From positions 620,001 to 684,000 of the forward strand of contig NZ_JBBYXJ010000002.1 of the NCBI RefSeq assembly GCF_039655775.1: a stretch of 64,000 nucleotides of DNA, written 5' to 3'. Both the position numbers and the translations under genes were made by a program. The DNA comes from Iodidimonas sp. SYSU 1G8. Lineage in GTDB: Bacteria; Pseudomonadota; Alphaproteobacteria; SMXS01. This document shows positions 25,925-59,971 of this stretch, piece by piece. The notes beneath the pieces were generated by a model. The model was not told the DNA's origin and did not search any database. It saw only the letters and a program-made list of their open reading frames with translations. Each line of letters opens with the position of its first letter. Position 1 is the first letter of the stretch.

Positions 25925-27184
25925 TTACTTCTTCGGGGTGAACTCGATGTGCAGTTCCTTGAGCGCGCGCAGGCAGAAGGTCGGGCCGTGCTTGAAGTCG
26001 TTCTTGCCCTCGGCGAACTGGATGTGATCGAACCGGTCGGTCATGGCCTTGAAGCCCCAGTACAGCTCGCGGCGGGCCAGCGGCGCGCCCAGGCAATGAT
26101 GGACGCCCGAGCCGAATGCCAGGTGACTGCCGGCGTTCTTGCGGTCGAGGTTTAGTTGTTCCGGGCAGTCGAAATGCTCTTCGTCACGGTTGGCCGACGC
26201 GTAGCGGGTATTGATCATCGCGCCCTTGGGGATCGTGACGCCATGCATCTCGATATCCTTGGCGGCGATGCGGAACAGGCTCTGTACCGGTGATTCGAGG
26301 CGCAGGACTTCCTCGACGAAGGTGCGGATGTCCTTGTCGTTGCCCTGCTTCAGGCGCGCCCACACGTCCGGGTTCTGGATCGCCAGCATCATGCCGGCCG
26401 ACAGTGCGTTGGTGGAGGTCTCCGAGCCGCCGACGAAGGTATCGGCCATCATCTCGGCATGGAGCTCGTTGTCGTTCAGGGTCCGGCCCCATTCGGGGAT
26501 CACGGTGTTCACCAGATCGGACAGCAGCGTGTCGTCGGGCTGCTTGCGCAGGCGCTCGAAGATCGGCTGGAAGTAATGCTGCGCCTCGATTTCCATCTCG
26601 ACCGACCAGCGTTCTTCTTCCTCGGTCAGCATCATGCCCAGACGTTGCACCCAGGCGTCGGTCCAGGCCTTGATGCGCCAGATGTCTTCTTCCTTCGCGC
26701 CCATCTGCTTGCCGATGATGATCAGGGGCAGCGGCACGGCGTACTGCTTCACCCAGTCGCAATGGCCATCGGCGATGAAGCCGTCGATCAGCTTGTAGGC
26801 GGTCTGCTCCACCAGCGGATCGACTTCCTTGATCTTGCCGGCGCGGAACGCCGCGTCGAACATGGCGCGCATCTGCTTGTGATTGGGGTCGTCGCGGCCG
26901 GCCAGGGTCGGCGCCGGGGTCCAGCCCTTCTCCTCGTAGAGCTTGCGGATGCGTTCGGTGCGCTCTGGGTTCAGGGTCGTCTTGGGGCGCACGTTGCTGA
27001 AGCTTTCCGTGTCGAGCAACACCTTGCGCAGGTCCTCGTAGCGGGTGACGAAATAGAACCCGGTCACCGGATCCTTCCACACCGGCGCTTGCTCGCGCAG
27101 CAGCTTGTAGGCGTCGTACGGGCATTCCTGAAGTTCGGGCGTGAAGAAGTTCAGGTCATCGGGCTTCTGGATGGTCGTGCTCAT
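25925..27184 (-). CDS. Cytochrome P450 (bacterial class I type)
   Basis: The 419-residue soluble P450 has an I-helix GGSETS (about 252-257), ExxR in EEVLRLESP, and the heme-ligand loop AFGSGVHHCLGAPL with Cys364. It hydroxylates an unknown, probably hydrophobic, substrate using a ferredoxin encoded elsewhere. The acidic I-helix residue is Glu rather than Asp, as in the two other P450s of this window. GGGGAG precedes the ATG. The start faces the MarR gene across a 156-bp region with a 9-bp dyad. Confidence 0.93.
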   Translation of the reverse strand: MSTTIQKPDDLNFFTPELQECPYDAYKLLREQAPVWKDPVTGFYFVTRYEDLRKVLLDTESFSNVRPKTTLNPERTERIRKLYEEKGWTPAPTLAGRDDPNHKQMRAMFDAAFRAGKIKEVDPLVEQTAYKLIDGFIADGHCDWVKQYAVPLPLIIIGKQMGAKEEDIWRIKAWTDAWVQRLGMMLTEEEERWSVEMEIEAQHYFQPIFERLRKQPDDTLLSDLVNTVIPEWGRTLNDNELHAEMMADTFVGGSETSTNALSAGMMLAIQNPDVWARLKQGNDKDIRTFVEEVLRLESPVQSLFRIAAKDIEMHGVTIPKGAMINTRYASANRDEEHFDCPEQLNLDRKNAGSHLAFGSGVHHCLGAPLARRELYWGFKAMTDRFDHIQFAEGKNDFKHGPTFCLRALKELHIEFTPKK

Positions 27185-27323: not shown

Positions 27324-27340
27324 GTTATATTTCGTGAGTG

Positions 27341-27811
27341 ATGAAAAAGGACGAACTGGATCGCACCTTCGGTTTCCTGGTGCACGATATCGGGCGGCTG
27401 ATGCGGCGCGAGTTCGAGCGGCGCGTGCGCGACATGGGATTCACGCGCGCCCAGTGGCGCGTGCTGGCGCATCTGCGGCGGATCGACGGCATCAATCAGA
27501 GCCAGCTCGCCGATCGCATGGATGTGGAGCCGATCACGCTGGTACGGCTGCTCGACAAGCTCGAGGCGGCCGGCTACGTCCAGCGCCGCCAGGACCCGCA
27601 GGACCGGCGGGCCTATTTGCTCTACCTCACTGAAAAGGCCGGACCGCTGATCGAGCGGCTAGAGGTGATCTCCGAGGAGCTGCGCCAGGAAATGCTCGGT
27701 GATCTGACGCCGGATGAGCGCGACACGCTGATCGACATGCTGATGCGCATCAAATCGAACATGACCAACAAGACCACGGAGACTTTGTGGGAGGTGGCCG
27801 CGCATGAATAA
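27341..27811 (+). CDS. MarR family transcriptional regulator
   Basis: The 156-residue winged-helix protein has the MarR core: RRIDGINQSQLADRMDVEPITLVRLLDKLEAAGYV (recognition helix) and the wing QRRQDPQDRRAYLLYLTEKA with the conserved DRR. It leads an operon with an HlyD adaptor and a DHA2 exporter, whose expression it likely represses until a ligand binds. The start is ATG 27341 or the adjacent GTG 27338; GTGAG is the only weak ribosome site. The gene overlaps the adaptor start by 8 bases. Confidence 0.9.
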   Translation: MKKDELDRTFGFLVHDIGRLMRREFERRVRDMGFTRAQWRVLAHLRRIDGINQSQLADRMDVEPITLVRLLDKLEAAGYVQRRQDPQDRRAYLLYLTEKAGPLIERLEVISEELRQEMLGDLTPDERDTLIDMLMRIKSNMTNKTTETLWEVAAHE

Positions 27812-30496: not shown

Positions 30497-31573
30497 CTAT
30501 TTTTTCTTTTTCCCCTTCTTTTCGGGCACATGGACCGTGCCCTTGCCGATGATCCAGGGCAGATCGAGGAAGGTCTTCACCCCGGATGGCGCGTCGCAGA
30601 CGTAGGGCACGGCGTTGACGGCGTGCATGGCGGTTCCTTGCAGGCCGTCGCCGATCCAGCGGGCGTCGAAATTGACATGCATGCGCGGCTCGCCCTCAAT
30701 GGTGATCGAATGGTCGCCGGTCGCCCAGCCGGGCGCGACGCTTTCATGCATGCGCCAGACCGTCTCATGGACGATGATCTTTTCGCCGCCGGCGATGCCG
30801 GCCCATTCCCAGTGCTGGCCGGCGACGGTCCCCTTTTTGACGAGACCCGCGGCGGTTTCCAGATCGGCGGGCGCCAGTTCCCGAACCGTGGATTCCGCGA
30901 TGTCGTCCAGTTTCACGCCCAAGGCGTCGGCGATCATCTGGATGTTCTCGCGAAACAGGCCGGATAGCCAGAACGAGTAGCGTTCGGCGTCCTTCTTGAA
31001 CTGGGCCGGCGTCTTGCCGAAGCCCATCATGTCGAACATGATCTCCGGCGACGGATAATGCTGGAAGTTGGAGATCTCGCGGACGTGGATCTTGTCCACG
31101 CGCTTCGACAGCGCCGTCATGGTCAGGGGCAGCAGATCGCCCAGCCACCCCGGATTGAGGCCGGTGGAATGGAAGGTGGAGCCGCCGCGCCGGCAGGCTT
31201 CCTCGAGCCGCTTGGTCAGCTTGGGGCCGTAGACCTTGGGGTACATGTAGCCGACCGTGGTGATCACGCTCTTACCAGAGGCCAGCAGGGCGCAGAAGGT
31301 GTCGATGTCGGCCATGGGATCAGCGCCATAGACCAGCGAGGGCAGCGCCGTGTGCAGCACCACGTCCGCGTCCATGGCGATGATCTTGTCGAGATCGTTG
31401 GTCGCCTTGACGCCCAGCTTGCCGATGCCGGCGATCTCGCCTGCGTCCATGCCGGCCTTCTGGTCGGAAAAAACGTACATGCCGACCAGCTTCATGTTGT
31501 CGCGCTCGGCGACGGCACGCACCGCGTGCTTGCCCACATTGCCACTCGACCACTGGATTACCTTGTAGGCCAT
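30497..31573 (-). CDS. DapB-fold NAD(P)-dependent dehydrogenase-like protein
   Basis: The 358-residue protein has an N-terminal Rossmann domain of dihydrodipicolinate-reductase type (VIQWSSGNVGKHAVRAV, then ADVVLHTALPS and GKSVITTVGYMYP). A central dimer domain contains FHSTGLNPGWLGDLLPL. Similar proteins include 2,4-diaminopentanoate dehydrogenase and uncharacterised degradation-island oxidoreductases, so an amine, imine or aldehyde substrate is possible. The C-terminus ends in an unusual lysine-rich tail (EKKGKKKK). It lies 105 bases downstream of the TetR gene on the same strand. AGAGGGGATG precedes the start. Confidence 0.75.
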   Translation of the reverse strand: MAYKVIQWSSGNVGKHAVRAVAERDNMKLVGMYVFSDQKAGMDAGEIAGIGKLGVKATNDLDKIIAMDADVVLHTALPSLVYGADPMADIDTFCALLASGKSVITTVGYMYPKVYGPKLTKRLEEACRRGGSTFHSTGLNPGWLGDLLPLTMTALSKRVDKIHVREISNFQHYPSPEIMFDMMGFGKTPAQFKKDAERYSFWLSGLFRENIQMIADALGVKLDDIAESTVRELAPADLETAAGLVKKGTVAGQHWEWAGIAGGEKIIVHETVWRMHESVAPGWATGDHSITIEGEPRMHVNFDARWIGDGLQGTAMHAVNAVPYVCDAPSGVKTFLDLPWIIGKGTVHVPEKKGKKKK

Positions 31574-35329: not shown

Positions 35330-35354
35330 CCGGCCAGAGGGCGGGATCAGGAAG

Positions 35355-36512: not shown

Positions 36513-36597
36513 ATGATCGTGTCCAGGGGCAGGTGGGGAGCCTGTCCGCTGGAGCCGCAAGACCTTCACGCCACATAACCGAATGGGGAGACGAACC

Positions 36598-37926: not shown

Positions 37927-38307
37927 TCACCAGATGATGTCAACCGTGGCGTGGGCGAAGGCACGATCCGAGGTCACGACCTTGCAGGAACGTGCGATCG
38001 CCTGCGCGACGATCAGGCTATCCCAGGGGTCCTTGTGATCCCAGTCCAGCGCGCCGCCCAATCGCATGTCCCCGGCTTCCAGCGGCAGCCACGGGATTTC
38101 AGCGGCGGCGACGTGGTGCTCCAACTCGAGTGCGATGGCGAGGGGGAGTTTTCCCAGACGCGCCTTGTTGATCAGTTCATAGAGCGAGACAACGCTGGCG
38201 CGTCTCTCGTTGTTCGGGTCACTGATGACCAGAGTGGCGGCTGATGACAGCCTTTTATCATCCGTCAGCCACTACAGAAGGGCATTGGTGTCGAGCAGCA
38301 GGATCAC
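37927..38307 (-). pseudogene. VapC-type PIN-domain toxin interrupted by an amber codon
   Basis: Read from GTG 38307, the frame gives VILLLDTNALL, then TAG at 38274-38272, then WLTDDKRLSS and a complete PIN domain ending DRAFAHATVDIIW. Every expected acidic residue is present (DTNA, SLYELINKARLGKL, DPWDSLIVAQA, VTSDRAF) and the length (126 codons) is normal. In this family the interrupted position is usually tryptophan (LLWWL), so one TGG-to-TAG change explains the break. No start codon follows soon enough to save the first active-site Asp. GTG overlaps the antitoxin stop (GTGA). It could be a real null, a suppressed stop or a sequencing error. Confidence 0.85.
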
Positions 38308-38582
38308 GGATCGGTGTCATTGCCGACGCATAACCCGATCCCATTGGTGCCTTGGCCTTCCATGATCGCCTGGTCCTCGGGATCGAGCGGCTCGAAGGCT
38401 TCAGGGGGCAACTTCCAGTGCCTGGCGATGCCGGGAGTCCGAGGCTGTGATTGCGGCAACGGCACCAGCTTGGCCAGTGGCTTGCCGGAGCGTGCGATCA
38501 CGATCTCTTCGCCGGCGGCGGCCCGCGCCACCAGATCGGAGAGATGAGCCTTCGCGTCGGCGATGTTGACCGGCTTGTTCAT
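38304..38582 (-). CDS. Phd/YefM-family antitoxin
   Basis: The 92-residue protein starts MNKPVNIADAKAHLSDLVARAAAGEEIVIARSGKPLAKLVPL, here described in pieces: a DNA-binding N-terminal alpha/beta domain with the typical AGEEIVIARSGKP turn. A proline-rich toxin-binding tail (PPEAFEPLDPEDQAIMEGQG) follows. It would neutralise the adjacent VapC toxin and autoregulate the pair. About 13 residues after EGQG are an unusual extension. The start 38582 is at the conserved first residue. Its stop overlaps the toxin GTG by 4 bases. Confidence 0.88.
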   Translation of the reverse strand: MNKPVNIADAKAHLSDLVARAAAGEEIVIARSGKPLAKLVPLPQSQPRTPGIARHWKLPPEAFEPLDPEDQAIMEGQGTNGIGLCVGNDTDP

Positions 38583-38684
38583 CAATGAAATATGGGCTGC
38601 GGTCACCTGTTGGTCAACGCAGTTGGTCATCCTGATCGCGGGCCGCCGGACACCTTTTGGCCGGGGGCACGGTCCGCCGCCGCT

Positions 38685-40256
38685 TTACCCCACCCGCCGA
38701 TCCATTCCTGCCCAATAGGGCTCGCGCAGCTCGCGCTTGAGCAGCTTGCCGATGGTGCTGCGTGGCAGGTCGTCGCGCAGTTCGACGCCGCTCAGGCGCT
38801 GCAGCTTGCCCAGCTTTTCGTTCGCCCAGAGACGGATTTCCTCGCCGGTTGCCGTCGCGCCCGGCTTCAGGACCACGAGGCCCAGCGGCGTTTCGCCCCA
38901 TTCGTCGCTGGGGATGGAGATCACGGCCGCGTCGTCCACGGCCGGATGCTTCAGCAGCTCCGCCTCCAGGTCGGCGGCATAGATGTTGAAGCCACCGGAG
39001 ATGATCATGTCCTTGGCGCGATCCAGCAGGGTGATGAAGCCGTCCTCGTCCATGCGGCCCATGTCGCCGCTGCGCTGCCAGACGCGCCCGCTAGGATCGG
39101 TCCAACGGCTCTCGGCGGTCTTGTCGGGCTTGTTGTAGTAGCCGGTCATCATGAAGCTGGACCAGCCGATCAACTCGCCGATCTGGCCGCGCGGCACCTC
39201 GTTCATATTCTCGTCGACCACGCGGATCTCGGTGCCTTCGCGGGCATAGCCGACCGTGTGCACCTTGTCGGGATTCTCGTGTGCATTGAAGAAGCAGCCG
39301 ACGCCGCCCTCGGTCATGCCATAGACCTCGGTGAAGCCGCCCGGCCAGGCGGTGATCAGCCAGGTCTTGAACTCGGGGCGCAGCGGCGCCGAGGTGCAGA
39401 ACTTCCACTGGAAGCTGGACAGGTCGTACTTGCCGAAATCCGGGTGATCGTGCAGGCGGTGATACTGCACGGGCACCTGCATGGTGTGGGTCGCGCGCTC
39501 CTTCTCGGCCAGCTTCAGGTAGCTTTCCGTGTCCGAGCGGGGCAGCAGGATGGTGGTGCCGCCCCAGGCCAGCGCCGGCAGCAGCGCGAACAGTGTGGTA
39601 TTCGAGTAGAGCGGCGTCGAGACGATGAGCCGCGTGTCCGGGCTGTATTTGAACGCGTCGCGCGTCGCCCAGTAGGAAATGCGCGTGCGGTGATCGTGCA
39701 GGATGCCCTTGGGCACGCCGGTGGTGCCGGACGAATAGATGATGTTGAAGTCGTCCAGCTTGTCGATGGCGACGCCGGGGTTGGTCTCGGGATACTGGGC
39801 GATCCAGTCCTGGAATCCCGTCCAGCGGTCGTCGGCGAAGTCATAGGCGATGCGGCCGCCGGTCACCAGGGTGTGCAGGCGCGCGTCGATCTGGCCGACG
39901 AGCTCCATGGTTTTCTTCGAGACGAACAGCACCTTGGAGCCGCTGTCGGCGATCATCGCCTCGAGGCTTTCGGCGCTGGCCATGCCCGACAACGGCACGG
40001 CGCAGGCGCCGGCGCGGATGATGCCCCAGAAGGTGAAGAAATATTCTGCCGAGGTGTCGGCCAGCATGGCGACCTTGTCGTTGCGCCCGACGCCCAGCGC
40101 GATCAGCCCGTTGGCGATCCTGTTGATGATCTTGTCGCCTTCGCCCCAGCTGTAGCGGCGGTCATTGAACACCAGCATTTCGGCGTTCGGCCGGGTGCGG
40201 GCGTGATAGTCCATGAGATCGGAGAGATTGGCTTCCCGTTCGAACTGCGTGAGCAT
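38685..40256 (-). CDS. Acyl-CoA synthetase / AMP-dependent ligase
   Basis: The 523-residue ANL-superfamily enzyme has the AMP-binding P-loop YSSGTTGVPKGILHDH, the TE block VYGMTEGG, the GDMGRMDEDGFITLLDRAKD hinge region and the C-terminal catalytic lysine in RSTIGKLLKRELRE. It activates a carboxylic acid as acyl-adenylate and then CoA thioester. It is the last gene of the eight-gene minus-strand operon, so its likely substrate is the acid made by the upstream oxidative enzymes. AGGGGATAG precedes the ATG. Confidence 0.93.
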   Translation of the reverse strand: MLTQFEREANLSDLMDYHARTRPNAEMLVFNDRRYSWGEGDKIINRIANGLIALGVGRNDKVAMLADTSAEYFFTFWGIIRAGACAVPLSGMASAESLEAMIADSGSKVLFVSKKTMELVGQIDARLHTLVTGGRIAYDFADDRWTGFQDWIAQYPETNPGVAIDKLDDFNIIYSSGTTGVPKGILHDHRTRISYWATRDAFKYSPDTRLIVSTPLYSNTTLFALLPALAWGGTTILLPRSDTESYLKLAEKERATHTMQVPVQYHRLHDHPDFGKYDLSSFQWKFCTSAPLRPEFKTWLITAWPGGFTEVYGMTEGGVGCFFNAHENPDKVHTVGYAREGTEIRVVDENMNEVPRGQIGELIGWSSFMMTGYYNKPDKTAESRWTDPSGRVWQRSGDMGRMDEDGFITLLDRAKDMIISGGFNIYAADLEAELLKHPAVDDAAVISIPSDEWGETPLGLVVLKPGATATGEEIRLWANEKLGKLQRLSGVELRDDLPRSTIGKLLKRELREPYWAGMDRRVG

Positions 40257-40310
40257 CGTCTATCCCCTGAGATTTTCTTGTGGCGCAGCGTGCCAGCGGC
40301 ACCGCGCATG

Positions 40311-41477
40311 TCAATATGCGGCGTCCAATATGGCTTTCACCGAGGCTTCGTCGGGCAGCGGGCGCGGGTTGGTGCGGACCCACATGCTGGCGACGCTGCG
40401 GCGGGCGATGCCGTCGAAATCGTCGCGGGTCACGCCTACGTCCCGCAGGGTCTGCGGCAGGCCGAGGCTGGCGATGAAGGCGTGGACCAGGTCGGCGGCG
40501 TCCTCGTCCGGGCGGCCGAAGGCGGCGGAGACGTAGCGCTGGGCCTGTTCGGTCACCGGCTTGTTGTAGCGGAGCACGTGCGGCATCAGGATGCAGGACG
40601 TATAGCCGTGCGGCACCTCCTTCATCCCGCCCAGCACGCCGCCGATACCGTGCGAGGCGCCGTAGGGCGCGCGATCGATGCCGTGTCCGGCGATCCAGGT
40701 GGCCTGCTGGCAGGCAAGGCGCGCGTCCAGATCGTCCGGGTCGGCCTTGGTGCGCGGCAGATTGGCGGCGTACATCTCGATGGCCTGGCGGCAGCAGCCG
40801 GTGATGAACGGATTGGCCTTGATCGAACAGATGCCCTCGATGGCATGGTCGAGACCGCGGATGCCGGTCGAAAGCCACAGCCATTCGGGCGTGTGCCGGG
40901 TCATGGCCGGGTCGAGGATGATGACCTGACCCGCTGAGTTGGTGCCGACGAAGCCGTCCTTGAACTGCTTGCGCAGGTCGGTGACGCCCGCGATGGTGCT
41001 GAACTCGGCGCCTGACAGGGTGGTCGGGACGATGATCTGGCGCACGGTGGAAGGCCGCGATGTCGGCGTGACGTAGCTGCCGTCGGCGTTCACCCGCGTG
41101 TGCCAGGCGTCCATGCCCTCGACGGTACGCACGTCCTCGGCGATGCAGATCTGCACCGTCTTGACCATGTCGATGGCGGTGCCGCCGCCGATGGTGACGA
41201 TCAGGTCGGCACCCGCCGCCCGCACCGCGTCGGCGCATTCCAGCACGGTCTCTCGCGGCGTGTGGGCGATGCAGTCGTCATAGAGGCCGACGACGAGGTC
41301 GCCGAGCGCCGATCGCAGGTCGGCGATGGCCGGTGTTCTCCGGTTCAGCGACTTCGCGGTGACGATGAACAGCCGGGTTTTCCCCAACCGCTCCGCTTCC
41401 GCGCGGATCGCTTCGGCCGCAGGGCGGCCGAAGACGATACGTTCCTGCGGAATGTAGTCGTAGCTGCCCGAAGGCAT
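40311..41477 (-). CDS. Iron-containing alcohol dehydrogenase (maleylacetate-reductase-like)
   Basis: The 388-residue protein belongs to the group III Fe-ADH family. It has the NAD-binding GGGTAIDMVK, a metal Asp in LDPAMTRHTPEWLW and histidines in GLDHAIEG, ASHGIGG and HGYTSCILMPH. Relatives oxidise primary alcohols or reduce maleylacetate. In this operon it may oxidise an alcohol formed by the P450s or reduce an intermediate. The start at 41477 is chosen because it follows the SDR stop by 7 bases; an ATG at 41504 would overlap the SDR by 20 bases. Neither has a strong ribosome site. Confidence 0.88.
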   Translation of the reverse strand: MPSGSYDYIPQERIVFGRPAAEAIRAEAERLGKTRLFIVTAKSLNRRTPAIADLRSALGDLVVGLYDDCIAHTPRETVLECADAVRAAGADLIVTIGGGTAIDMVKTVQICIAEDVRTVEGMDAWHTRVNADGSYVTPTSRPSTVRQIIVPTTLSGAEFSTIAGVTDLRKQFKDGFVGTNSAGQVIILDPAMTRHTPEWLWLSTGIRGLDHAIEGICSIKANPFITGCCRQAIEMYAANLPRTKADPDDLDARLACQQATWIAGHGIDRAPYGASHGIGGVLGGMKEVPHGYTSCILMPHVLRYNKPVTEQAQRYVSAAFGRPDEDAADLVHAFIASLGLPQTLRDVGVTRDDFDGIARRSVASMWVRTNPRPLPDEASVKAILDAAY

Positions 41478-41484
41478 GGGTGGC

Positions 41485-42264
41485 TCAGGAGCCGCCGGTG
41501 ACATAGAGGCACTGGCCGGTGACCCAGCCCGAGGCGGGCGAGGACATGTACAGCACGGCCGCGCCGATATCTTCCGGCGTGCCCCAGCGCTCCAGCGGCA
41601 GCTTCATGTATTCCTTCAGCTCGGCCTCGCGCTCGGGCGTGTGCATCTTCATGGAATCGATGAAGTTCTCGGTCGGAATCGGACCCGGCGCCACGGCGTT
41701 GACGCGGATCTTCGGCGCCAGCTCGCGCGAGAAGGTGGCGGTCAGGCTGTTCACCGCCGACTTGGAGGCGCCATAGGGGCCGTTCTTCAGGTTCGGGCCC
41801 ATGTCCTTGGCCGCGCGCGACGAGATGTTCACGATCGCGCCGCCGTTCTCGCCCATGGCCTTGGCCGCGACGACGCAGCCCGCCCAGACGGCTTTGATGT
41901 TCAGGTCGATCTGCGCCATGAACTGCTCTTCCGAGGTGCGCGTCAGCCAGCGCGGCGTGCCGTCGGGCAGACCACCGGCATTGTTCACCCAGATGTCGAG
42001 TCCGCCCAGTTCGTCCTGGGCGCGCTTGGCCAGGTTTTCCAGGAACTCCATCTTGGTCACGTCCGTCGGCACCGCGATGGCGCGGCGGCCGCGTTCCTGA
42101 ACTTCCTTGACCACCCGGTCCAGCTCGTCCTTGCTGCGCGAGGCGACGGCGATATCCGCGCCGGCCTCGGCGAGCGCCAGGGCGATGCCCCGGCCGATGC
42201 CCTTGCCTGCGCCGGTGATGACGGCGACCTTGCCGTCCAGCTTGAATAGATCGAGAGCACCCAT
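41485..42264 (-). CDS. SDR family oxidoreductase in the eight-gene operon
   Basis: A 259-residue classical SDR with TGAGKGIG, NNAGG, VNISSRA and YGASK. It resembles the tandem SDR pair at 24-26 kb: the blocks DLFKLDGKVAVITG, APKIRVNAVAPGPIPTE and SPASGWVTG correspond to similar blocks there. The three form a local family associated each time with P450 genes. AAAGGAA precedes the ATG, and the iron alcohol dehydrogenase follows directly. It probably acts on an alcohol or keto intermediate. Confidence 0.9.
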   Translation of the reverse strand: MGALDLFKLDGKVAVITGAGKGIGRGIALALAEAGADIAVASRSKDELDRVVKEVQERGRRAIAVPTDVTKMEFLENLAKRAQDELGGLDIWVNNAGGLPDGTPRWLTRTSEEQFMAQIDLNIKAVWAGCVVAAKAMGENGGAIVNISSRAAKDMGPNLKNGPYGASKSAVNSLTATFSRELAPKIRVNAVAPGPIPTENFIDSMKMHTPEREAELKEYMKLPLERWGTPEDIGAAVLYMSSPASGWVTGQCLYVTGGS

Positions 42265-42304
42265 CCCGTTAGTTCCTTTCGTCTTCCCTTGAGAGTGTTT
42301 TGTG

Positions 42305-43336
42305 TCAGGCCGTGGCGGCCGGCAGGCGGATCACCATCTTGCCGCGGTTCTCGCCCCGGTAGAGGCGCTGGAACACGTCGGGGAAATCCCCGACATCGCC
42401 GTCGACGATGTTGTCGCGCAGCACCAGCTTGCCTTCGTTCATCCATTGCGCGATCTGTTTCTGCGCCTCGGCGAACTTGTCGAGATAATCATAGACCACG
42501 AAGCCCTGCATGCGCGCGCGCATGGTGCCCAGCCAGATGTAGTTGCTGGGGCCTTCGATCTTTTCCTGGGTGTATTGCGAGGTCGAGCCGCACATCAGCA
42601 CGGTACCGCGCATGCCGATCCACCGCAGGCTTTCATTGAGGATCGGCCCGCCCACATTGTCGAAAATGGCGTCGATCCGGTCCGGCGCGGCCGCGACCAG
42701 CTGGTCGTACAGGTCACCCTTCTTGTAGTTGATGGCTACGTCGAAGCCGAGTTCCTCGGTCAGCCAGCGCGCCTTGTCGTCGCTGCCGGTGATGCCGATG
42801 ACGCGCGCGCCGAGAATCCGGCCGATCTGGCCGGCGACCGAGCCGACGGCGCCGGCCGCGCCATTGACGACCAGCGTCTTGCCCGGGCCGAGCCGGCATT
42901 CCTCGGTCACGGCGAAATAGGCGGTGAGGCCCGACACGCCCATGCCGCCCAGCCATGAGGGCAGGGGCGCGATGGCGGTATCCACCAGAGACAGGCCCGC
43001 GCCGTCCGACACGGAATAGTTCTGCACGCCCAGGCCGCCGGTAACGTAGTCGCCTTCCTTGAAGGCCGGATTGCGGGACTCGACGATCCGGCCGGCGACC
43101 GTGCCGCGCACGAGGTCGCCCGGCTGGACGCGGAACAGGAAGTCCTTGCTGTCGCGCATGATCAGGCGCAGCGCCGCATCGACGGACAGATACTGGGCCT
43201 CGACCAGCACCTCGCCGTCCTTCGGCTCGGGCACCGGCGCCTCGCGGACCTCGAAATCCTGCGGCCCGGCTTCTCCTTCCGGGAAGCGGGTCATGAAAAG
43301 CTGGCGGTTGCGGGCGGCGTTCGGGCGATCGGACAC
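42305..43336 (-). CDS. MDR-superfamily NADP-dependent oxidoreductase
   Basis: The 343-residue protein is a zinc-free medium-chain reductase of the CurA/leukotriene-B4-dehydrogenase type. It has VPEPKDGEVLVEAQYLSVD, the nucleotide-binding VVNGAAGAVGSVAGQIGRI, and YDNVGG-like DAIFDNVGGPILNESL. Such enzymes reduce the C=C of enones. GTG 43336 is the start, one base after the upstream P450 stop. It is related to the partial MDR gene at 63026. In this operon it may saturate an alpha,beta-unsaturated intermediate. Confidence 0.9.
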   Translation of the reverse strand: MSDRPNAARNRQLFMTRFPEGEAGPQDFEVREAPVPEPKDGEVLVEAQYLSVDAALRLIMRDSKDFLFRVQPGDLVRGTVAGRIVESRNPAFKEGDYVTGGLGVQNYSVSDGAGLSLVDTAIAPLPSWLGGMGVSGLTAYFAVTEECRLGPGKTLVVNGAAGAVGSVAGQIGRILGARVIGITGSDDKARWLTEELGFDVAINYKKGDLYDQLVAAAPDRIDAIFDNVGGPILNESLRWIGMRGTVLMCGSTSQYTQEKIEGPSNYIWLGTMRARMQGFVVYDYLDKFAEAQKQIAQWMNEGKLVLRDNIVDGDVGDFPDVFQRLYRGENRGKMVIRLPAATA

Positions 43337-43337
43337 G

Positions 43338-44582
43338 TCAGGCCTGCTTCTTGTCGAAAGTGATGTGCAGATGCTTCAGCGCGCGGACCATGAAGTTGCC
43401 CTGATGCTGGAAGTCGTTCTTGCCCTCGGCGAACTGGAAGTTCTCCAGCCGCTCGAACAGGATGCGGAAGGCGATGTTCATTTCCTGACGAGTCAGCGGC
43501 GCACCGACGCAGTGATGCTCGGCGGTGCTGAACGCCAGATGCGCGCCGGCGTTCTTGCGGCAGACATCAAGCCGGTCGGGGTCGGCGAACACCTTGGCGT
43601 CGCGGTTCGCCGAACCAAAGCGCATGTTGATCATGGACCCGCGCGGGATCTGGACGCCGCCCAGTTCCGTGTCCTTGACGGCGACGCGGAAGATGCCCTG
43701 GGTCGGGCTTTCGACGCGCAGCACTTCCTCGACGAAATTCTTGATCAGCTTGGGATCTTCCTGCACCAGCCTGTACTGGTCCGGGTTCTGGATCAGCAGC
43801 ATCATGCCCGACGACATGGCGTTGGTCGTGGTCTCGTTGCCGCCGACCAGCAGTTGCTCGGTCATGGACATCATCTCACGCACGGTCAGGTCGCGCTCGC
43901 CGTTGAACTTGCCATGGACCAGATCGCTGATGATCCGGTCATCCCGGTTGACGCGCTTTTCCTCGAACTTCCCGGCCAGATAGTGCTGCAGCTCGACGAT
44001 GTTGCGGGCGCACTCCACCTGACGCTCGGCGTCCATGGTGTGCGCGTGCGGCAGCACCCATTCCTCGGACCAGAATTTCAGCCGGGGCAGGTCTTCGGGC
44101 GGCAGGCCGAGCCGGTCGGCGATAACGTGCATGGGCAAGGGATAGGCGAAATCCATGATGAAATCGCATTCGCCCTTGTCGATGAACTTGTCGATCAGCT
44201 CATTGACCAGCTTGGTGATGAAGGGCTCGCAGGCGTCGATGCGGCTCTTGGTGAAGGAGACGTCGACCAGGCTGCGATACATGTCGTGCAGCGGCGGGTC
44301 CTTGGACAGGATGGCGTCACGCGGCCAGCCTTCCGTCTCGAAGATTTCCGGGATCGCCGGATTGCTCCACAGCGTCTCCTGCGACCAGTCGGTGAGCTGG
44401 TCGGAGAAGGTCTCCCAATCCTTGGCGACCTTGCGGCACAGATCGTAGGTGGTCACCACGTACCAGCCGGTCTCGGGCATCTTGTAGACCGGCGCTTCCT
44501 CGCGCAGGCGCTTGTAGTCGTGGTACGGACACTCGACGCTCTGCGGGTCGAGCAAACGGATATCCAGCGCTTCCTTGTTCAT
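43338..44582 (-). CDS. Cytochrome P450 with altered heme-loop motif
   Basis: The 414-residue P450 has the I-helix GGNETT (248-253), ExxR in EEVLRVESP, and the heme loop AFSTAEHHCVGAPL with Cys358. The canonical F-x-x-G-x-H-x-C-x-G motif has alanine (A354) in place of the first glycine. His356/357 and Cys are retained, so it is probably still active. It lies 2 bases after the preceding P450 gene and 1 base before the MDR reductase gene, implying co-translation. Substrate is unknown, and redox partners are not in the window. Confidence 0.92.
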   Translation of the reverse strand: MNKEALDIRLLDPQSVECPYHDYKRLREEAPVYKMPETGWYVVTTYDLCRKVAKDWETFSDQLTDWSQETLWSNPAIPEIFETEGWPRDAILSKDPPLHDMYRSLVDVSFTKSRIDACEPFITKLVNELIDKFIDKGECDFIMDFAYPLPMHVIADRLGLPPEDLPRLKFWSEEWVLPHAHTMDAERQVECARNIVELQHYLAGKFEEKRVNRDDRIISDLVHGKFNGERDLTVREMMSMTEQLLVGGNETTTNAMSSGMMLLIQNPDQYRLVQEDPKLIKNFVEEVLRVESPTQGIFRVAVKDTELGGVQIPRGSMINMRFGSANRDAKVFADPDRLDVCRKNAGAHLAFSTAEHHCVGAPLTRQEMNIAFRILFERLENFQFAEGKNDFQHQGNFMVRALKHLHITFDKKQA

Positions 44583-44584
44583 GG

Positions 44585-45850
44585 TCAGGCCTTCTCGAAC
44601 GAGATATGCAGGTCTTTCAGCGCGCGCAGCGTGAACCCGGGGATATGCTCCGGGTGCTCATGGCCGGGCTTGAAGCGGATGTTCTTCAGGCGGCCGAACA
44701 GGCTGCGGAACGCGCGGTTCAACTCGATCCGGGCCAGCGGCGCGCCGAGACAGTGATGGATGCCCTGGCTGAACGCCATGTGGCGTCCGGCATTGGGGCG
44801 GTTGATGTCGATCTTGTCCGCGTTGGGGAACATCCGTTCGTCGCGGTTGGCCGCGGCGAAACGCAGATTGACGATCTTGCCCTTGGGAATGGTGAAGCCG
44901 TGGAACTCCACGTCGCGGGTCGTCGCGCGGAACATGCCCTGTGTCGGCGATTCCAGACGCAGCACCTCCTCGACGTAATTCTTGATGGCCGCCGGGTTCT
45001 CCGCCAGGCCGCGTTGCACGTCCGGGTTCTGGACATAGAGCATCATGCCAGACGACAGGGCGTTCGCCGTCGTTTCGTGCCCGCCGACCGCGGCGGTCTC
45101 GGAGAACGAGAGCACTTCCCGGGTCGTCAGTTTCCGCTCGGTACCATCGAGACCTTTGTATGTGGCGTGCACCAGCATGCTCAGCAGACCGTGGTCCGGA
45201 TTGGCGCGCTTCTTTTCCGCCTGGTCGACGAGATAGTGCTGGAACTCGCAGATGATCTCGGTCGCTTCCAGCTTTTCCTTGCGGCCTAGACCCATGGCGA
45301 ACGGCTTTACCCAGGCTTCGGCATAGTGCTTGAGCTTGGGCAGATCTTCCATGGGAAGGCCCAGCATGTTGGTGATGACGGCGGCGGGCAGGGGAAAGCC
45401 GAAATCCGTGACGAATTCGCATTCGCCCCGGTCCACGAAATTATCGATGAGAGCGTCGATGGTCTGCTGGATGAAGGGCTCGAACTCGCGCAGCTTGGCC
45501 GGGAAGAAGAACGGGTCGATCAACTCGCGATAGGTGGTGTGGTTGGGCGGATCGAGCATGAAGGTCGGTTGCCGCTCGAAACCCTTCTCGCGGTAGATGG
45601 CGTTCATTTCCTCGTCGGTCGTGGGCGGCGGCGCATGCGCGGCCAGATCCTCGGAGAACTCCTCGGGGTTGCGCACGATTTCGGCGATGTGGTCGTAGCG
45701 CGTGATCACATACATGCCATTGGTCGGCAGGTGATAGACGCCGATGTCCCGCAGCTGTCGATAGGCATCGTATGGGTTCTCCTGGACTTTGGGGTCCATG
45801 AGGTCGATGTCCGCCGGCGCGATGGCTGGGGTTTCCGCCTGGGTGCTCAA
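44585..45850 (-). CDS. Cytochrome P450
   Basis: A 421-residue class I-type P450 with I-helix GGHETT, ExxR in EEVLRLESP and heme loop AFSQGIHHCLGAPL (Cys367 from the chosen start). I place the start at TTG 45850, which overlaps the preceding TGA as TTGA and has GGTGGAG 9 bases upstream. The ATG at 45868 would overlap the previous gene by 22 bases. It is closely related to the next P450 gene (shared ESPTQG, NAGxHxAF and HHCxGAPL blocks), so the two probably arose by duplication and may act in sequence or as a pair. Confidence 0.92.
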   Translation of the reverse strand: MSTQAETPAIAPADIDLMDPKVQENPYDAYRQLRDIGVYHLPTNGMYVITRYDHIAEIVRNPEEFSEDLAAHAPPPTTDEEMNAIYREKGFERQPTFMLDPPNHTTYRELIDPFFFPAKLREFEPFIQQTIDALIDNFVDRGECEFVTDFGFPLPAAVITNMLGLPMEDLPKLKHYAEAWVKPFAMGLGRKEKLEATEIICEFQHYLVDQAEKKRANPDHGLLSMLVHATYKGLDGTERKLTTREVLSFSETAAVGGHETTANALSSGMMLYVQNPDVQRGLAENPAAIKNYVEEVLRLESPTQGMFRATTRDVEFHGFTIPKGKIVNLRFAAANRDERMFPNADKIDINRPNAGRHMAFSQGIHHCLGAPLARIELNRAFRSLFGRLKNIRFKPGHEHPEHIPGFTLRALKDLHISFEKA

Positions 45851-46245
45851 CGCAGCTTGCTCCACCATTTCTGCATGACCACGCCGTGGTCCTTGGAATA
45901 GCGCTTGGCGAGTTCACTGGCGTCGTCGGGCAAATCCTGGTGCTCGGTCGGCGGCAACTCGTTGGCGCCCTGGACTGGATCGATCCATTCCAGCTTGTTG
46001 CTCTCCAGCAAGGAACCGAAGTCCGGCGCCTCATGATGGTCGCTGGTCTGATGAACCATGAATGACCGGTAGTCCTTGAACGACAGCAGGCAGTAGTAGT
46101 GGCCGGGCTTTTGCGAGCGGAAGTACTCGTAGCGCAGCACGTCCTTTTCCAGCCTGTGCGTCTGTTCCCAGATCTGCCGGGCGACCGTTTCGAACTCGGC
46201 TTCCTTGCCGTCGAAGATCTTCAGATGGGCGATGAAGGTTGCCAT
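45847..46245 (-). CDS. ABM-fold (antibiotic biosynthesis monooxygenase-like) protein, copy 2
   Basis: The 132-residue protein has an ABM/dimeric alpha-beta barrel domain: MATFIAHLKIFDGKEAEFETVARQIW, then RYEYFRSQKPGHYYCLLSFKDYRSFMVHQTSDHHE. A roughly 45-residue C-terminal tail ends KRYSKDHGVVMQKWWSKLR. ABM proteins can be cofactor-free monooxygenases or simple binding proteins. It follows its tandem paralogue by 13 bases and overlaps the P450 start by 4 bases. GGGGAGAG precedes the ATG. Confidence 0.8.
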   Translation of the reverse strand: MATFIAHLKIFDGKEAEFETVARQIWEQTHRLEKDVLRYEYFRSQKPGHYYCLLSFKDYRSFMVHQTSDHHEAPDFGSLLESNKLEWIDPVQGANELPPTEHQDLPDDASELAKRYSKDHGVVMQKWWSKLR

Positions 46246-46258
46246 GAGCGTCTCTCCC

Positions 46259-46666
46259 CTAATTCCGCAGCGCCGACCACCAGTCGGCCATGCGGATCGC
46301 ATAGCTCTTGGCGTATTTCTGGACCAGTTCGCTGGCGCCGGGCGGGGCGTCCTGCGGCTCGTTCTGGGCGAGGGCGTTCGCGCCCTTCACGGCGTCGACC
46401 CACTCGATCTCGATGTTCTGGACCAGATCGCCAAACTCGGCGCCAAAATCCTCGTGGGCATCGCTGGACTGGTGCACCAGAAAGGCCTGGAAATCCTTGA
46501 ACGACAAAAATCCGTAATACGAACCTTCCTTTTCGCCACGGAAGAACTCGTAACGTGTCGTCCCCGGCTCTGTCGCGTGGGTCGTGCGCCACAGCGAGCT
46601 CTGCAATTCCTCGAACCGGGCTTCCCTGCCCGGTTTGATCTGGATGTGGGCGAGGATTGTCGCCAT
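46259..46666 (-). CDS. ABM-fold (antibiotic biosynthesis monooxygenase-like) protein, copy 1
   Basis: This 135-residue first gene of the eight-gene operon shares its whole layout with the next: MATILAHIQIKPGREARFEEL, RYEFFRGEKEGSYYGFLSFKDFQAFLVHQSSDAHED and a tail with KYAKSYAIRMADWWSALR. The conserved SFKD-F-V/LHQ-SD block and the terminal WW are distinctive. Function may be oxygenation without cofactor, or binding of a P450 substrate or product; only position supports this. GGGGAAG precedes the ATG. Confidence 0.8.
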   Translation of the reverse strand: MATILAHIQIKPGREARFEELQSSLWRTTHATEPGTTRYEFFRGEKEGSYYGFLSFKDFQAFLVHQSSDAHEDFGAEFGDLVQNIEIEWVDAVKGANALAQNEPQDAPPGASELVQKYAKSYAIRMADWWSALRN

Positions 46667-47104: not shown

Positions 47105-49834
47105 ATGAAAAAGGACAAGCTGCGCACGCTGATGATCGGGGGGGCGACTGTCGCCCTGTCCGGTCTGGCGTTCGCATGGACGCCGGTCATCGCGCAGGAT
47201 GCGCCGGCCGCCGCCGCGCCGAGCCAGTCGTCAGTGGGCGTGCTGGAATCGGTCACGGTCTCGGGCACGAAGCGTGAGTCCAACCAGCAGGAAACGCCGA
47301 TCGCGATCTCGACGGTGACCTCGGCCCAGCTCGAGAACACGTTCATCTCGGACGTGCGCGCCGTGGCCCAGATGGCGCCGAACGTGATCCTCAGCAACGT
47401 CACCGGCTTCAACGCGCTGGCACCGGCCATCCGCGGCGCCGGTACCAACGGCATTCTGGTCACGCAGGACGCGGCCATCGGGCTCGTCATCGACGAGTTC
47501 GCGCTCTCCAGCGTGCAGTCCCAGTTCGTGGAACTGTTCGACATCGAGCAGGTGGAAGTCTATCGCGGTCCGCAGGGCACGCTGTTCGGCAAGAGCACGA
47601 CCGGCGGCGCCATGGCGATCACCACCAAGAAGCCGGAGATGAACGAGTATTTCGGCCAGGCCGAGCTGACCTTCGGCGGCTACGGCCGTGAAGGCGGCAA
47701 CATCGGCAAGGGCAAGCTCGCCATCAACGTGCCGGTGGTTGACGACAAGCTGGCGATCCGCATCACCGGCGTCTACGACTATTCGGACGGCTACTACCGG
47801 AACGACAAGGACACCTCGACCTTCCCGAATCTGGTGCCGTTCTATGCCGCGCTGGGCTTGCCGACGGTCAACCCGCCCATGCCGGCCGGCCTCGACACCT
47901 CGACCCGTGGCTCGGGCGAGCACCTCGGCGGTCGTGATGTCCTCGCCATGAAGGCGAAGGCGCTGTTCACGCCGACCGACAATTACGAGGCGCTGTTTAC
48001 CTTCGAGCTGGTGCGCGACCGCTCCGACAGCCCGCCCGGCGTGAACGAGACCGTCGCCGTCGACCGCTTCGGCACCCAGTTCCTGCTGCCCCGCCTGGGC
48101 TTCATCGGCATCGCCGATGCCGGCGTCGGTGACAATCCGTTCAGCACCGGCATTTCCAACCAGAACACCCGCGCCCAGAACGTGGCGAAGGGGCATTCGG
48201 TGAATGTCGAGGGCTTCTACCTGAACCAGTCGATGGAATTCGACAGCTTCACCGTGAAGTCGATCACCGGCTACCGGATGATGGAAGAGACGCTGCCCAG
48301 CACCTATCCGGGTGAAGCGTTCAACAACCTGTTCGACAGCTCGCGCAATCTCGAGCGCAAGATGTTCCAGCAGGAACTGCGCATGGTCACCAATTTCGAC
48401 GGCCCGTTCAATTTCGTCGCGGGCGGCCAGTACTTCATGGACAACATGCAGTTCCGCGCCTTCTCGTCGCAGGGCTTCCAGTCGCTGTACAACTTCCATC
48501 GCACCGGTCCGACGCTCGGCACCACGCCCAGCCCGGTCCAGTATTATGACGCGATGGGCAATCTGAACCTGAACCTGGATTACATCAACGATCCGACGGT
48601 GACCGGTTCCGAACAGTACCGTGACACCTATGCGGTGTATTTCGACTTCAATTACGACATCACGGACCGCCTGACGTTCAATGGCGGCGTGCGCTACACC
48701 TACGACAAGAAGAAGTTCGTGCGCTTCCATGACGGCAATGGCCCGTGCACGAGCGCGACGCAGCTCGAGTATCAGCGCTATCCGAACGACGACCCGAACA
48801 CGCCTGGCGTCTATGAAGGCCCGTGTTTCGACAGCCGCTCGAACGCCATCAGCCGCGCCGGTCTGACCGCCAACGACGTCAATCCGCGCGAGAACCCGCT
48901 GCCCCTGTCGGCGTTCGGCCTGAACGTCAATACTCAGGACAGCTGGAAGCGCCTCACGTGGCGCGCCGTCGTCGACTACAAGGTCACCGACGAGATCATG
49001 ACCTATGCCGGCTATTCGACCGGCTTCCTGGCCGGCGGCTTCACCGAGACCTGCTCGGGCGTCGCCACCTGCGTGCCGTTCAATCCGGAAAAGAACTGGA
49101 ACATCGAAGCCGGCCTGAAGGCGGATCTGTTCGACCGCACGTTGCGGTTCAATCTCGCGGCCTTCTACACCCGCTATAACAACCTGCAGCGCAACCAGGT
49201 CGTGCCGTACATCAATTCGGTCGGCAACCTGGCCCAGGAAACCATCACCGTGAACGCCGGTGAGTCGGAATCCTACGGTCTCGAACTGGAAACCGTCTGG
49301 GTGCCGGTCGACAATGTGCGCGTCGATTTCACCATGGGTTACCTGAAGTCCAAGTACCTGGATTTCCAGACCGACTACATTCCGTCGGACGCGGTCCTGA
49401 TCTCGCGCGGCCTGTGCACCGCGTCGCCCTGCTCGGCGAACGGCGTCCCGGGCGCGAACATCAACGGCAATCTGGACGATGGTACCCTGCTGACCGTGCC
49501 GTTCTCGCCCAAGTGGAACATTGGCATGGGCATCACCTATGACATGGATCTGGGCAACACCGGCACGCTGACCTGGAACGCCAACTTCCACTATCAGTCG
49601 AAGGCCGAATGGCAGGTGTTCAACAGCGAGAACACCCAGCTGCAGGAACGCTTCCTGCTCAACGCCAGCCTGACCTATCGCGATCTGGACGAACGTTACC
49701 GCGTGACCGTCTATGGCAAGAACCTGCTGAACGAAGTCTACCGCACCAACGCCAACTCGGTGGCCGGTCTGTGGAACTTCACCCAGTATGGCGCCCCGAT
49801 CGAGTGGGGCATCGAAGCCGGCTTCTACTTCTAG
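47105..49834 (+). CDS. TonB-dependent receptor 1 of the four-receptor array
   Basis: The 909-residue receptor has a signal peptide (MKKDKLRTLMIGGATVALSG to VIAQDAP), a TonB-box-like LESVTVSGTKRES and a plug domain (TPIAISTVTSAQLENTF to VEVYRGPQGTLFGKSTTGGAMAI). A long beta-barrel ends in GIEAGFYF with the terminal aromatic residue needed for BAM recognition. It belongs to the same subfamily as the three following receptors (shared ITAYRKQKE-like, NAISRAGLTA and GFTETCS blocks). GAAGGGGAG precedes the ATG. It likely imports an organic substrate across the outer membrane with TonB-ExbBD energy. Confidence 0.94.
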   Translation: MKKDKLRTLMIGGATVALSGLAFAWTPVIAQDAPAAAAPSQSSVGVLESVTVSGTKRESNQQETPIAISTVTSAQLENTFISDVRAVAQMAPNVILSNVTGFNALAPAIRGAGTNGILVTQDAAIGLVIDEFALSSVQSQFVELFDIEQVEVYRGPQGTLFGKSTTGGAMAITTKKPEMNEYFGQAELTFGGYGREGGNIGKGKLAINVPVVDDKLAIRITGVYDYSDGYYRNDKDTSTFPNLVPFYAALGLPTVNPPMPAGLDTSTRGSGEHLGGRDVLAMKAKALFTPTDNYEALFTFELVRDRSDSPPGVNETVAVDRFGTQFLLPRLGFIGIADAGVGDNPFSTGISNQNTRAQNVAKGHSVNVEGFYLNQSMEFDSFTVKSITGYRMMEETLPSTYPGEAFNNLFDSSRNLERKMFQQELRMVTNFDGPFNFVAGGQYFMDNMQFRAFSSQGFQSLYNFHRTGPTLGTTPSPVQYYDAMGNLNLNLDYINDPTVTGSEQYRDTYAVYFDFNYDITDRLTFNGGVRYTYDKKKFVRFHDGNGPCTSATQLEYQRYPNDDPNTPGVYEGPCFDSRSNAISRAGLTANDVNPRENPLPLSAFGLNVNTQDSWKRLTWRAVVDYKVTDEIMTYAGYSTGFLAGGFTETCSGVATCVPFNPEKNWNIEAGLKADLFDRTLRFNLAAFYTRYNNLQRNQVVPYINSVGNLAQETITVNAGESESYGLELETVWVPVDNVRVDFTMGYLKSKYLDFQTDYIPSDAVLISRGLCTASPCSANGVPGANINGNLDDGTLLTVPFSPKWNIGMGITYDMDLGNTGTLTWNANFHYQSKAEWQVFNSENTQLQERFLLNASLTYRDLDERYRVTVYGKNLLNEVYRTNANSVAGLWNFTQYGAPIEWGIEAGFYF

Positions 49835-49846
49835 TCATCCGTCGCG

Positions 49847-49873
49847 GAGGGGCGGGCAGCCTGCTCGCCCCTC
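49847..49873 (+). terminator. Hairpin after TonB receptor 1
   Basis: GAGGGGCGGGCAG (49847-49859) can pair with CTGCTCGCCCCTC (49861-49873) with one G-U pair, the innermost bases forming the loop. The following T-run is weak (TCTTCC). It lies 13 bases after the receptor 1 stop. It probably reduces read-through into the next receptor gene. Confidence 0.55.
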
Positions 49874-49959
49874 TTCCGACAGGGGTGACGATAAAAGACA
49901 TGCAAGCTTGGTGTTGCCGACAAGCCACACTGTTTGGATATCGGTGTCATAACAGTCAT

Positions 49960-49985
49960 GCGTGAACGATTGAGCGTGACGTGAC
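49960..49985 (+). promoter_or_regulatory. GCGTG-N3-GATTG-N3-GTGACGTGAC element upstream of receptor 2
   Basis: The 26-base element agrees with that at 62066-62091 at all 20 positions of GCGTG, GATTG and GTGACGTGAC, with identical 3-base spacings. It ends 88 bases before the receptor 2 start. The preceding TCAT makes TCA-TGCG-TGA, a small dyad. It is a candidate binding site for a shared activator or repressor. Confidence 0.55.
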
Positions 49986-50073
49986 TGATTTTAACTGCTT
50001 ATTCTCCCCTCCGTCTGAATAGCGTCCCGATCAACGGGCGCGAGCCAATACGGACCCGAAGGGGAGTTCAACG

Positions 50074-58444: not shown

Positions 58445-58591
58445 GTGAAGATGCCGGGGCCGGAACAACATTCACGTACAACTTTTCAGCACGGGAAAAG
58501 TCGCGTACAAGGTGGGGCGGGTCGGTCCGGGGGCCGCCTGTTCCACTTTTTCGCCCTGTCCTTGGCAGGGCCGTGTTGTAGGCGGGGTTCC

Positions 58592-59971
58592 ATGCAAGAC
58601 TCTGAGAGCGTGCGGCCGGGAGAGCCGCCATGGCCGAATCCGGCCTATGCGTGGTACGTGGTCATCGTCCTGTTCATCGGTGCGATCGTGTCGTTCCTGG
58701 ACCGGCAGATCATCGCGATCATGGTCAGCGACATCAAACTGGACCTCGGCCTGTCGGATTTTGAGATCGGCCTCTTGCAGGGTCCGCCCTTCGGCATCTT
58801 CTATGCCCTGATGTCCATCCCGATCGCCCTGGCGGCGGACCAGTTCAACCGGCGCAACATCATCGCGATCGGCGTGACCTTCTGGAGCCTGGCCACCGCC
58901 GCGTGCGGCTTCGCGGGCCATTTCTGGCATCTGTTCCTGGCCCGCATCAGCGTCGGCGTCGGCGAAGCGACCCTCAGCCCGTCGGCCTATTCCATCATCA
59001 GCGACTATTTTCCCAAGTCCAAGCTGGCCATGGCGATGAGCGTGTTCACCATGGGCAATCTGACCGGCGTCGGTCTTGCCATGGTGCTCGGCAGCGCGTT
59101 GCTCGCCGCGCTGAATGCCATCGGCCCGACCGACCTTCCGCTGCTGGGCACCATGCGTCCCTGGCAACTGGCGTTCGTCGCGGTCGGTCTGCCGGGACTG
59201 CTGCTGGCCCTTCTCGTGTTGACCATCCGCGAGCCTTATCGTCGTGGCCGGACGGTCAGTGATGAAACACAGGGCGGAAAAGCGCAACTCGCGGATTTCA
59301 TCGCCTTCCTGCGAAGCCATTCGGCGACCTTCGGTCATCTGCTGGTCAGCTTCACCATCCTGGTGCTGATCGCCTACGCCAACTTCGCCTGGGTCGTGCA
59401 GTTCTTCGTGCGCTCCTTCGGGACGACCCAGACGGAAGCCGGCATGTGGTATGGCACCATCGTGCTGATCTTCGGCACCATGGGCGCCTTCTTCGGCGGC
59501 TGGCTGTCGAACCGGCTGATGCGCGCGGGCTATGTTGACGCGCCTTTCCGCGCCTCGCTCATCTGCACGCTGCCGCTCGCCGTATGTGCCTTCTTCGCGT
59601 TCGTGGTCGCGCCGGATTCCTGGTGGGCGCTGGTCGCGCTGGCGCCCTGCCAGTTTCTCGGCGCCGTGCCAGCCGGTCTGGCGGGCACCGCGATGATGTC
59701 GATCACGCCGAACCAGATGCGCGCCAAGGCGGCGTCGGTCTATCTGTTCTTCAGCAATATCGTCGGCATCAGCCTGGGATCGACCATGGTCGGCTTCCTG
59801 ACGACGCATGTCTTCCGGGACGACAGCCGGCTGGGACACGCGCTCGCCATCATCAATTGCGGCGGCGCGCCCATCGCGGCGCTGATCATCTTCCTCGGGA
59901 TGAAGCACTATCGCGCCAGCCTGCTGCATGTGGAGGAACTGACGGCCCGGCAGATGCAGGCGGCCGGCTGA
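58592..59971 (+). CDS. MFS transporter (spinster-like)
   Basis: The 459-residue protein has about 12 membrane helices. TM1 starts YAWYVVIVLFIGAIVSFLDRQIIAIMV with the FLDR motif seen in spinster-like MFS proteins, then ALAADQFNRRNIIAIG (motif A) and ARISVGVGEATLSPSAYSIISDYFP. Members move sphingolipids, sugars or organic acids. Placed directly after four outer-membrane receptors, it may carry the imported compound across the inner membrane, although a terminator lies between. The start at 58592 follows GGCGGGG. Confidence 0.9.
   Translation: MQDSESVRPGEPPWPNPAYAWYVVIVLFIGAIVSFLDRQIIAIMVSDIKLDLGLSDFEIGLLQGPPFGIFYALMSIPIALAADQFNRRNIIAIGVTFWSLATAACGFAGHFWHLFLARISVGVGEATLSPSAYSIISDYFPKSKLAMAMSVFTMGNLTGVGLAMVLGSALLAALNAIGPTDLPLLGTMRPWQLAFVAVGLPGLLLALLVLTIREPYRRGRTVSDETQGGKAQLADFIAFLRSHSATFGHLLVSFTILVLIAYANFAWVVQFFVRSFGTTQTEAGMWYGTIVLIFGTMGAFFGGWLSNRLMRAGYVDAPFRASLICTLPLAVCAFFAFVVAPDSWWALVALAPCQFLGAVPAGLAGTAMMSITPNQMRAKAASVYLFFSNIVGISLGSTMVGFLTTHVFRDDSRLGHALAIINCGGAPIAALIIFLGMKHYRASLLHVEELTARQMQAAG

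Follow-up and report, generated by a model that had tools for sequence, protein, structure and literature searches.

A conserved seven-gene oxidative operon with a local second P450

An oxidative operon led by two extended antibiotic-biosynthesis-monooxygenase-fold (ABM) proteins was characterized in a 64,000-nucleotide stretch of the Iodidimonas sp. SYSU 1G8 genome (hereafter the window; C2:620001-684000 in our numbering). The operon also encodes two cytochromes P450 (P450a and P450b), a medium-chain dehydrogenase/reductase (MDR), a short-chain dehydrogenase/reductase (SDR), a protein of the iron-containing alcohol dehydrogenase (Fe-ADH) family and an acyl-CoA ligase, and is a new, uncharacterised arrangement of known enzyme families. 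Its conserved core comprises seven of the eight genes; the second P450, P450a, is a local addition. The window genome (G000) measures 3.92 Mb in two contigs, and its order is represented by ten genomes in our sample.

Open reading frame (ORF) and Pfam scans revealed eight minus-strand ORFs between positions 38685 and 46666, bearing out the strand, gene order and families given in an earlier, sequence-only reading of this DNA. Both P450s and the MDR (ADH_N_2), SDR, Fe-ADH and AMP-ligase domains exceeded their Pfam cut-offs, and both ABM proteins are members of the ABM family, scoring 41.9 bits (ABM1) and 31.4 bits (ABM2) against a gathering score of 23.1 bits. The heme-Cys and I-helix acid-Thr motifs of a cytochrome P450 were present in P450a (FSQGIHHCLG and GGHET) and in P450b (FSTAEHHCVG and GGNET, with Gly changed to Ala in the heme loop). 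Spacings between the longest ORFs were 13, -22, 2, 1, 40, -20 and 54 bases. Gaps of -4 to 54 bases had been reported before; the tight packing and the maximum of 54 hold, and the value of -4 would follow if P450a began at a TTG overlapping the ABM2 stop codon (TTGA). For the Fe-ADH gene, the start at MPSG used by most congeners would give a gap of +7.

All five congeneric genomes that carry the locus (G002, G003, G004, G005 and G007) share the order ABM1-ABM2-P450b-MDR-SDR-Fe-ADH-ligase, and the seven shared proteins are 72-98% identical across these congeners. Because this seven-gene order, without P450a, is preserved in five other species, the operon is real and beyond chance. The SDR was 97-98% identical in four congeners, where adjoining genes were 80-93% identical, a sign of unusual constraint.

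Comparison of the loci showed that P450a is not present between ABM2 and P450b in any of the five relatives, in which a gene-free gap of a few tens of bases lies between the two. When ten genomes of the family were searched with P450a, no congener protein exceeded 49% identity, and the top match was P450b. In a tree of 73 P450s, P450b formed a clade with the relatives' copies (100/100), and an origin of P450a as a tandem duplicate of P450b was rejected because P450a grouped with a different P450 lineage (96/81). The sister lineage of P450a is found elsewhere in the G005-G007 genomes, at loci with no ABM, MDR or ligase genes, which are therefore uninformative on the role of P450a. On the simplest reading, P450a was recruited as an additional gene once the lineage had split from G004. 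Its absence from five relatives means that the P450 pair is not the general design of the system: of the proposed co-occurrence of an ABM pair with a P450 pair, the ABM pair with P450b was recovered in five of five relatives and P450a in none, and hydroxylation by two P450s in series no longer serves to define the system. As a later species-level addition, P450a would probably widen the substrate range or add a second hydroxylation. The case illustrates the risk of interpreting an operon from one genome alone.

A rare extended ABM family that often neighbours P450 genes

ABM1 and ABM2 belong to an extended ABM family of ~133 amino acids with an invariant C-terminal Trp-Trp. An alignment of 29 members contained 16 invariant positions, including His66-Gln67, His72-Glu73 and Trp128-Trp129 (numbering follows the first row of our alignment A2, whose first residue precedes the ATG by one). 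PA3566 shares the His pair and the Gln, with His at the 'HQ..DH' positions; these residues are thus general to the superfamily, leaving the Trp-Trp tail as the subgroup's own. In the predicted model of ABM2 (pLDDT 92), residues 1-98 form the ABM core, which was aligned using VIA-align with 3kkf (Z 13.3; 1.7 A, 97 residues aligned), LsrG (Z 12.3) and SnoaB (Z 11.3). Over these residues the ferredoxin-like alpha+beta fold is that of the superfamily enzymes LsrG, YgiN, SnoaB and RslO4 (PDB 3qmq, 1r6y, 3kg0 and 7bio), but the window proteins carry a C-terminal extra part of ~35 residues that ends in the Trp-Trp. A PDB sequence search gave no match over the full ABM length. Among the structural matches listed, the alignment spanned residues 1-133 solely for MupZ of Pseudomonas fluorescens (PDB 6fxd; Z 11.8, 109 aligned), which is 14% identical to ABM2. 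MupZ acts in mupirocin biosynthesis, not in a P450 operon. By fold, ABM2 matches SnoaB and RslO4, representatives of the cofactor-independent quinone-forming monooxygenases (SnoaB/ActVA-Orf6 type), whose hallmark is a catalytic Asn/Trp set in the barrel. LsrG and SnoaB carry out different chemistry despite their common fold, so sharing the ABM fold does not assign a reaction.

The family is rare: relatives of ABM2 were found in 12 of 385 alphaproteobacteria, and the ABM profile gave no match beyond the window genome in a 398-genome sample of the phylum. Carriers are the window genome's own family, Erythrobacter and three further families, f49 (1.4 Mb genomes, 16 of 18), f91 and f123. An ABM gene lay within ~1 kb of a P450 gene in five of seven contexts. 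A P450 follows ABM2 directly in the window's own genus; in Erythrobacter a P450 ends 14 bases before the ABM gene, whose own end is overlapped by a SnoaL gene, and a divergent homologue (61-64%) of P450c, a further P450 of the window (Table 1), lies near. Another P450c homologue (67%) was found 31 bases past the ABM gene of G099, P450c-type genes within ~0.9 kb of a second ABM locus in G002, and a P450 ~0.7 kb from the ABM gene of G001. The f49 P450 lies several kb away, behind a SnoaL gene, in the single locus where one was seen. Several contexts also hold SnoaL, Rieske oxygenase, SDR or KstD-like genes nearby, and tandem ABM pairs arose separately in the window's own genus and in f49.

Two f49 loci (L103 and L105, from 1.4 Mb genomes) contain a SnoaL-ABM-ABM tandem, a pyrroloquinoline quinone (PQQ) dehydrogenase, a Rieske oxygenase and other oxidative genes; these small-genome, possibly marine lineages have ~12 P450 candidates each. 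The window genome itself encodes, at C2:601798-603108 (L082:1799-3109), a P450 homologous (61%) to the one that stands before the ABM gene in Erythrobacter, with no ABM gene adjoining.

The ten ABM carriers in a sample of 289 alphaproteobacterial genomes proved to be its ten P450-densest members, with 7.6-14 per Mb against 6.0 for the next genome, these counts being first-look candidates rather than curated genes. Since the ten fall in four families, they represent about four independent events. The window genome has 33 P450 loci, and its congeners are as rich. A 2021 survey of alphaproteobacteria put the average at 4 P450s per genome and the maximum at 17 (PMC8197338); the window genome thus holds about twice the survey maximum for any alphaproteobacterium.

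An altered metal site and an enone reductase

Further oxidation had been ascribed to the Fe-ADH gene product in the sequence-only reading. The family assignment stands, but the catalytic role is weakened by the loss of a metal ligand. Arg takes the place of FucO Asp196 both in the window protein and in each homologue of the alignment, while His200, His263 and His277 are kept; the position of FucO His267 is Gly in the window's own genus and mostly His elsewhere in the alignment. The protein therefore departs from the Asp and three His ligands of the metal-dependent group III (Fe-containing) alcohol dehydrogenases, and with Arg in place of Asp196 iron-dependent alcohol oxidation is no safe reading. 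Homologues were found in 49 of the 385 alphaproteobacteria. The best PDB matches include the maleylacetate-reductase-type proteins 3jzd, 3w5s and 9ph0 (MAR1), in which the Asp ligand is likewise replaced, by Asn or Arg. The window protein is, however, distant from them in sequence, and the operon contains no maleylacetate pathway genes. The MDR is an ADH_N_2 enone reductase, so the gene set combines oxidation with reduction of C=C bonds.

A proposed route of uptake and oxidative activation

The presence of a P450, an SDR, an enone reductase, an Fe-ADH-type protein, a CoA ligase and divergent TonB receptors fits uptake followed by oxidative activation. We see an even chance that the operon oxidatively breaks down, or at least transforms, a hydrophobic compound imported via the divergent TonB-dependent receptors and probably alicyclic in nature (terpenoid- or steroid-like), a proposal in which we infer the steps, the substrate class and the catabolic direction. 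After uptake of the compound by the receptors, P450b would insert oxygen, the SDR would convert a secondary alcohol to a ketone and the MDR would reduce a conjugated C=C. The Arg-type Fe-ADH homologue may carry out a further hydride step, perhaps independently of metal, and the ligase would form a CoA thioester for beta-oxidation elsewhere. ABM1 and ABM2 are predicted to be cofactor-free enzymes, an isomerase or oxygenase acting on an enone or ketone from the P450 branch. In support of this proposal, the gene order is preserved in the five congeners, every operon gene encodes a redox or activation enzyme, congeners retain divergent TonB receptors and an MFS transporter beside the operon, an ABM gene is repeatedly found beside a P450 in separate lineages, and the ABM carriers lead the 289-genome sample in P450 density. 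Of the earlier suggestion of an undescribed catabolic system, the conserved oxidative operon lacking a characterised match is upheld, and the catabolic role is the part that we infer.

More tentatively, the extended ABM proteins may constitute a distinct, undescribed P450-partner enzyme family that processes a common type of P450 product and marks a P450-heavy lifestyle of several origins, including the 1.4 Mb lineages. We regard this family as a better lead than the operon: it is small, rare and sharply conserved, and it tracks P450 density across the class. Should ABM have a defined reaction on P450 products, it would provide a new step in P450-led catabolism and a marker for P450-rich degraders.

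Several observations weigh against the proposed catabolic role. The operon gene set contains neither a redox partner nor an aldehyde dehydrogenase, and no P450 was found near the f123 ABM gene within the stretch seen. KshA_C (PF19298), the domain of 3-ketosteroid 9alpha-hydroxylase and a marker of the classical steroid route, had no match in the window genome, with one weak match in the control panel. Squalene-hopene-cyclase-like genes, identified by sequence inspection, lie nearby in several species, making an endogenous isoprenoid substrate possible. The link between ABM and P450 density draws on four families and on first-look counts of candidates; lifestyle, not function, may underlie it.

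Detoxification or cometabolism, in which toxic hydrophobic compounds (plant terpenoids, xenobiotics) are modified for export or partial inactivation and do not feed central metabolism, seems rather unlikely. Consistent with such a role, most congeners have, in syntenic positions near the operon, the MarR regulator and next to it a pair of Emr/MFS-like efflux genes, the MDR falls in the enone/2-alkenal reductase class, which detoxifies enones, and the very large number of P450 paralogues resembles that of generalist detoxifiers; the terminal acyl-CoA ligase and the divergent TonB uptake receptors, on the other hand, suggest assimilation. A role in making or remodelling an endogenous isoprenoid (hopanoid, carotenoid), or in making a secreted small molecule, is improbable, as the operon contains no polyketide, terpene-cyclase or peptide-synthetase gene and lies beside divergent importers, even though a squalene-hopene-cyclase-like gene is found within 10-30 kb in several congeners, and polyketide tailoring is the setting in which the ABM and SnoaL folds are most familiar. 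The small share of alphaproteobacterial P450s in biosynthetic clusters, 2.4% in one survey (PMC8197338), also counts against it. Least likely of all is that the two P450s act one after the other on a single substrate and that P450a was lost in the relatives. The close spacing of the neighbouring genes makes co-transcription probable in the window, but none of the five relatives has P450a, neither the most divergent genome (G002) nor the one nearest in the P450b tree (G004), and a single gain is a simpler account than several losses.

Genes flanking the operon

In the relatives, the conserved block runs on from the ligase into a DapB/2,4-diaminopentanoate dehydrogenase (DAPDH)-like gene, probably the ancestral end of the unit, and then into P450c. 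Efflux genes, the MarR regulator and an SDR are also syntenic on this side in most relatives; the other side holds one or more TonB receptors and an MFS transporter, plus a phasin gene in most (Table 1). In the window, the DapB-like gene lies 7 kb beyond the ligase, separated from it by an inserted block (31679-37896) that encodes a TetR regulator, a TonB receptor, a Rieske oxygenase and an ATP-grasp-like protein with no Pfam match, and that is not found between the ligase and the DapB-like gene in relatives. Positions 37930-38630 of the minus strand contain an intact VapB/Phd-type antitoxin gene followed by a PIN-domain toxin gene with an in-frame stop near its start; the toxin gene is intact in the congener G003. 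Four consecutive TonB-dependent receptors (47105-58391) are divergent from the operon, where relatives carry one to three.

Table 1. Operon genes and flanking features, in window positions; percentages are amino acid identities.
Feature	Position	Strand	Evidence and remarks
ABM1, extended ABM-fold protein, 135 aa	46259..46666	-	PF03992, E 1.2e-10; 73-87% in congeners
ABM2, second extended ABM protein, 132 aa (ATG at 46245)	45847..46248	-	PF03992, E 2.2e-7; 48% identical to ABM1
P450a, specific to window genome, outside conserved operon	44585..45868	-	PF00067
P450b, cytochrome P450 of conserved core	43338..44582	-	88-90% in congeners, same position
MDR, NADPH-dependent enone (C=C) reductase class	42305..43336	-	Closest PDB 4b7c and prostaglandin reductases; 84-85% in congeners
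SDR, most conserved gene of operon	41485..42264	-	Pfam/NCBIfam; 90-98% in congeners
Fe-ADH-family protein, Arg for metal-binding Asp	40311..41504	-	Arg subfamily, includes PDB 9ph0 MAR1; alternative start 41477
Acyl-CoA ligase (AMP-binding)	38685..40256	-	PF00501, E 3e-73; 87-93% in congeners
DapB/2,4-diaminopentanoate-dehydrogenase-like protein	30497..31573	-	PF19328, PF01113; after ligase block in relatives
P450c	25925..27184	-	86-89% in congeners; family adjoins ABM gene in Erythrobacter, G099 and second G002 locus
MarR-type regulator, candidate regulator of region	27338..27811	+	PF01047; syntenic in 4/5 congeners
TonB-dependent receptor, divergent; candidate for uptake, first in a row of four (to 58391)	47105..49834	+	Pfam
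MFS transporter, after TonB receptors	58520..59971	+	PF07690; syntenic in congeners

Comparison with known systems

NCBIfam models, plasmid neighbourhoods and the literature yielded no matching characterised operon, in agreement with the initial impression that the arrangement is unlike any named pathway. None of the eight operon proteins reached an NCBIfam cut-off except that of a generic SDR subfamily model, and there was no equivalog. Among annotated plasmids, ABM2 had no match and P450b matched at no more than 39%, while the best ligase and Fe-ADH matches lay in unrelated neighbourhoods (two records had no usable annotation). No operon of this kind was found described in literature on ABM, P450, SnoaL, maleylacetate reductase, and Erythrobacter and Novosphingobium catabolism. 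Classical 9,10-seco steroid degradation was rejected on the KshA result in the window genome, for which the weak control match makes the sensitivity check a limited one.

Estrogen catabolism in Novosphingobium (Caenibius) tardaugens uses the TonB receptor EdcT and the P450 EdcA (PMC7793797), a precedent for a receptor and a P450 working together in the kind of uptake and oxidation proposed here. The alphaproteobacterial edc cluster resembles the window operon, on our proposal of a catabolic role, in its P450, its uptake by a TonB receptor and redox partners that are apparently encoded elsewhere, a likeness of gene organization. The two differ in gene content: the edc cluster has an extradiol dioxygenase and an indolepyruvate-ferredoxin-oxidoreductase-like gene, whereas the window operon contains no Pfam domain of these kinds (an extradiol dioxygenase domain was detected in none of its eight proteins) and is led by the ABM pair.

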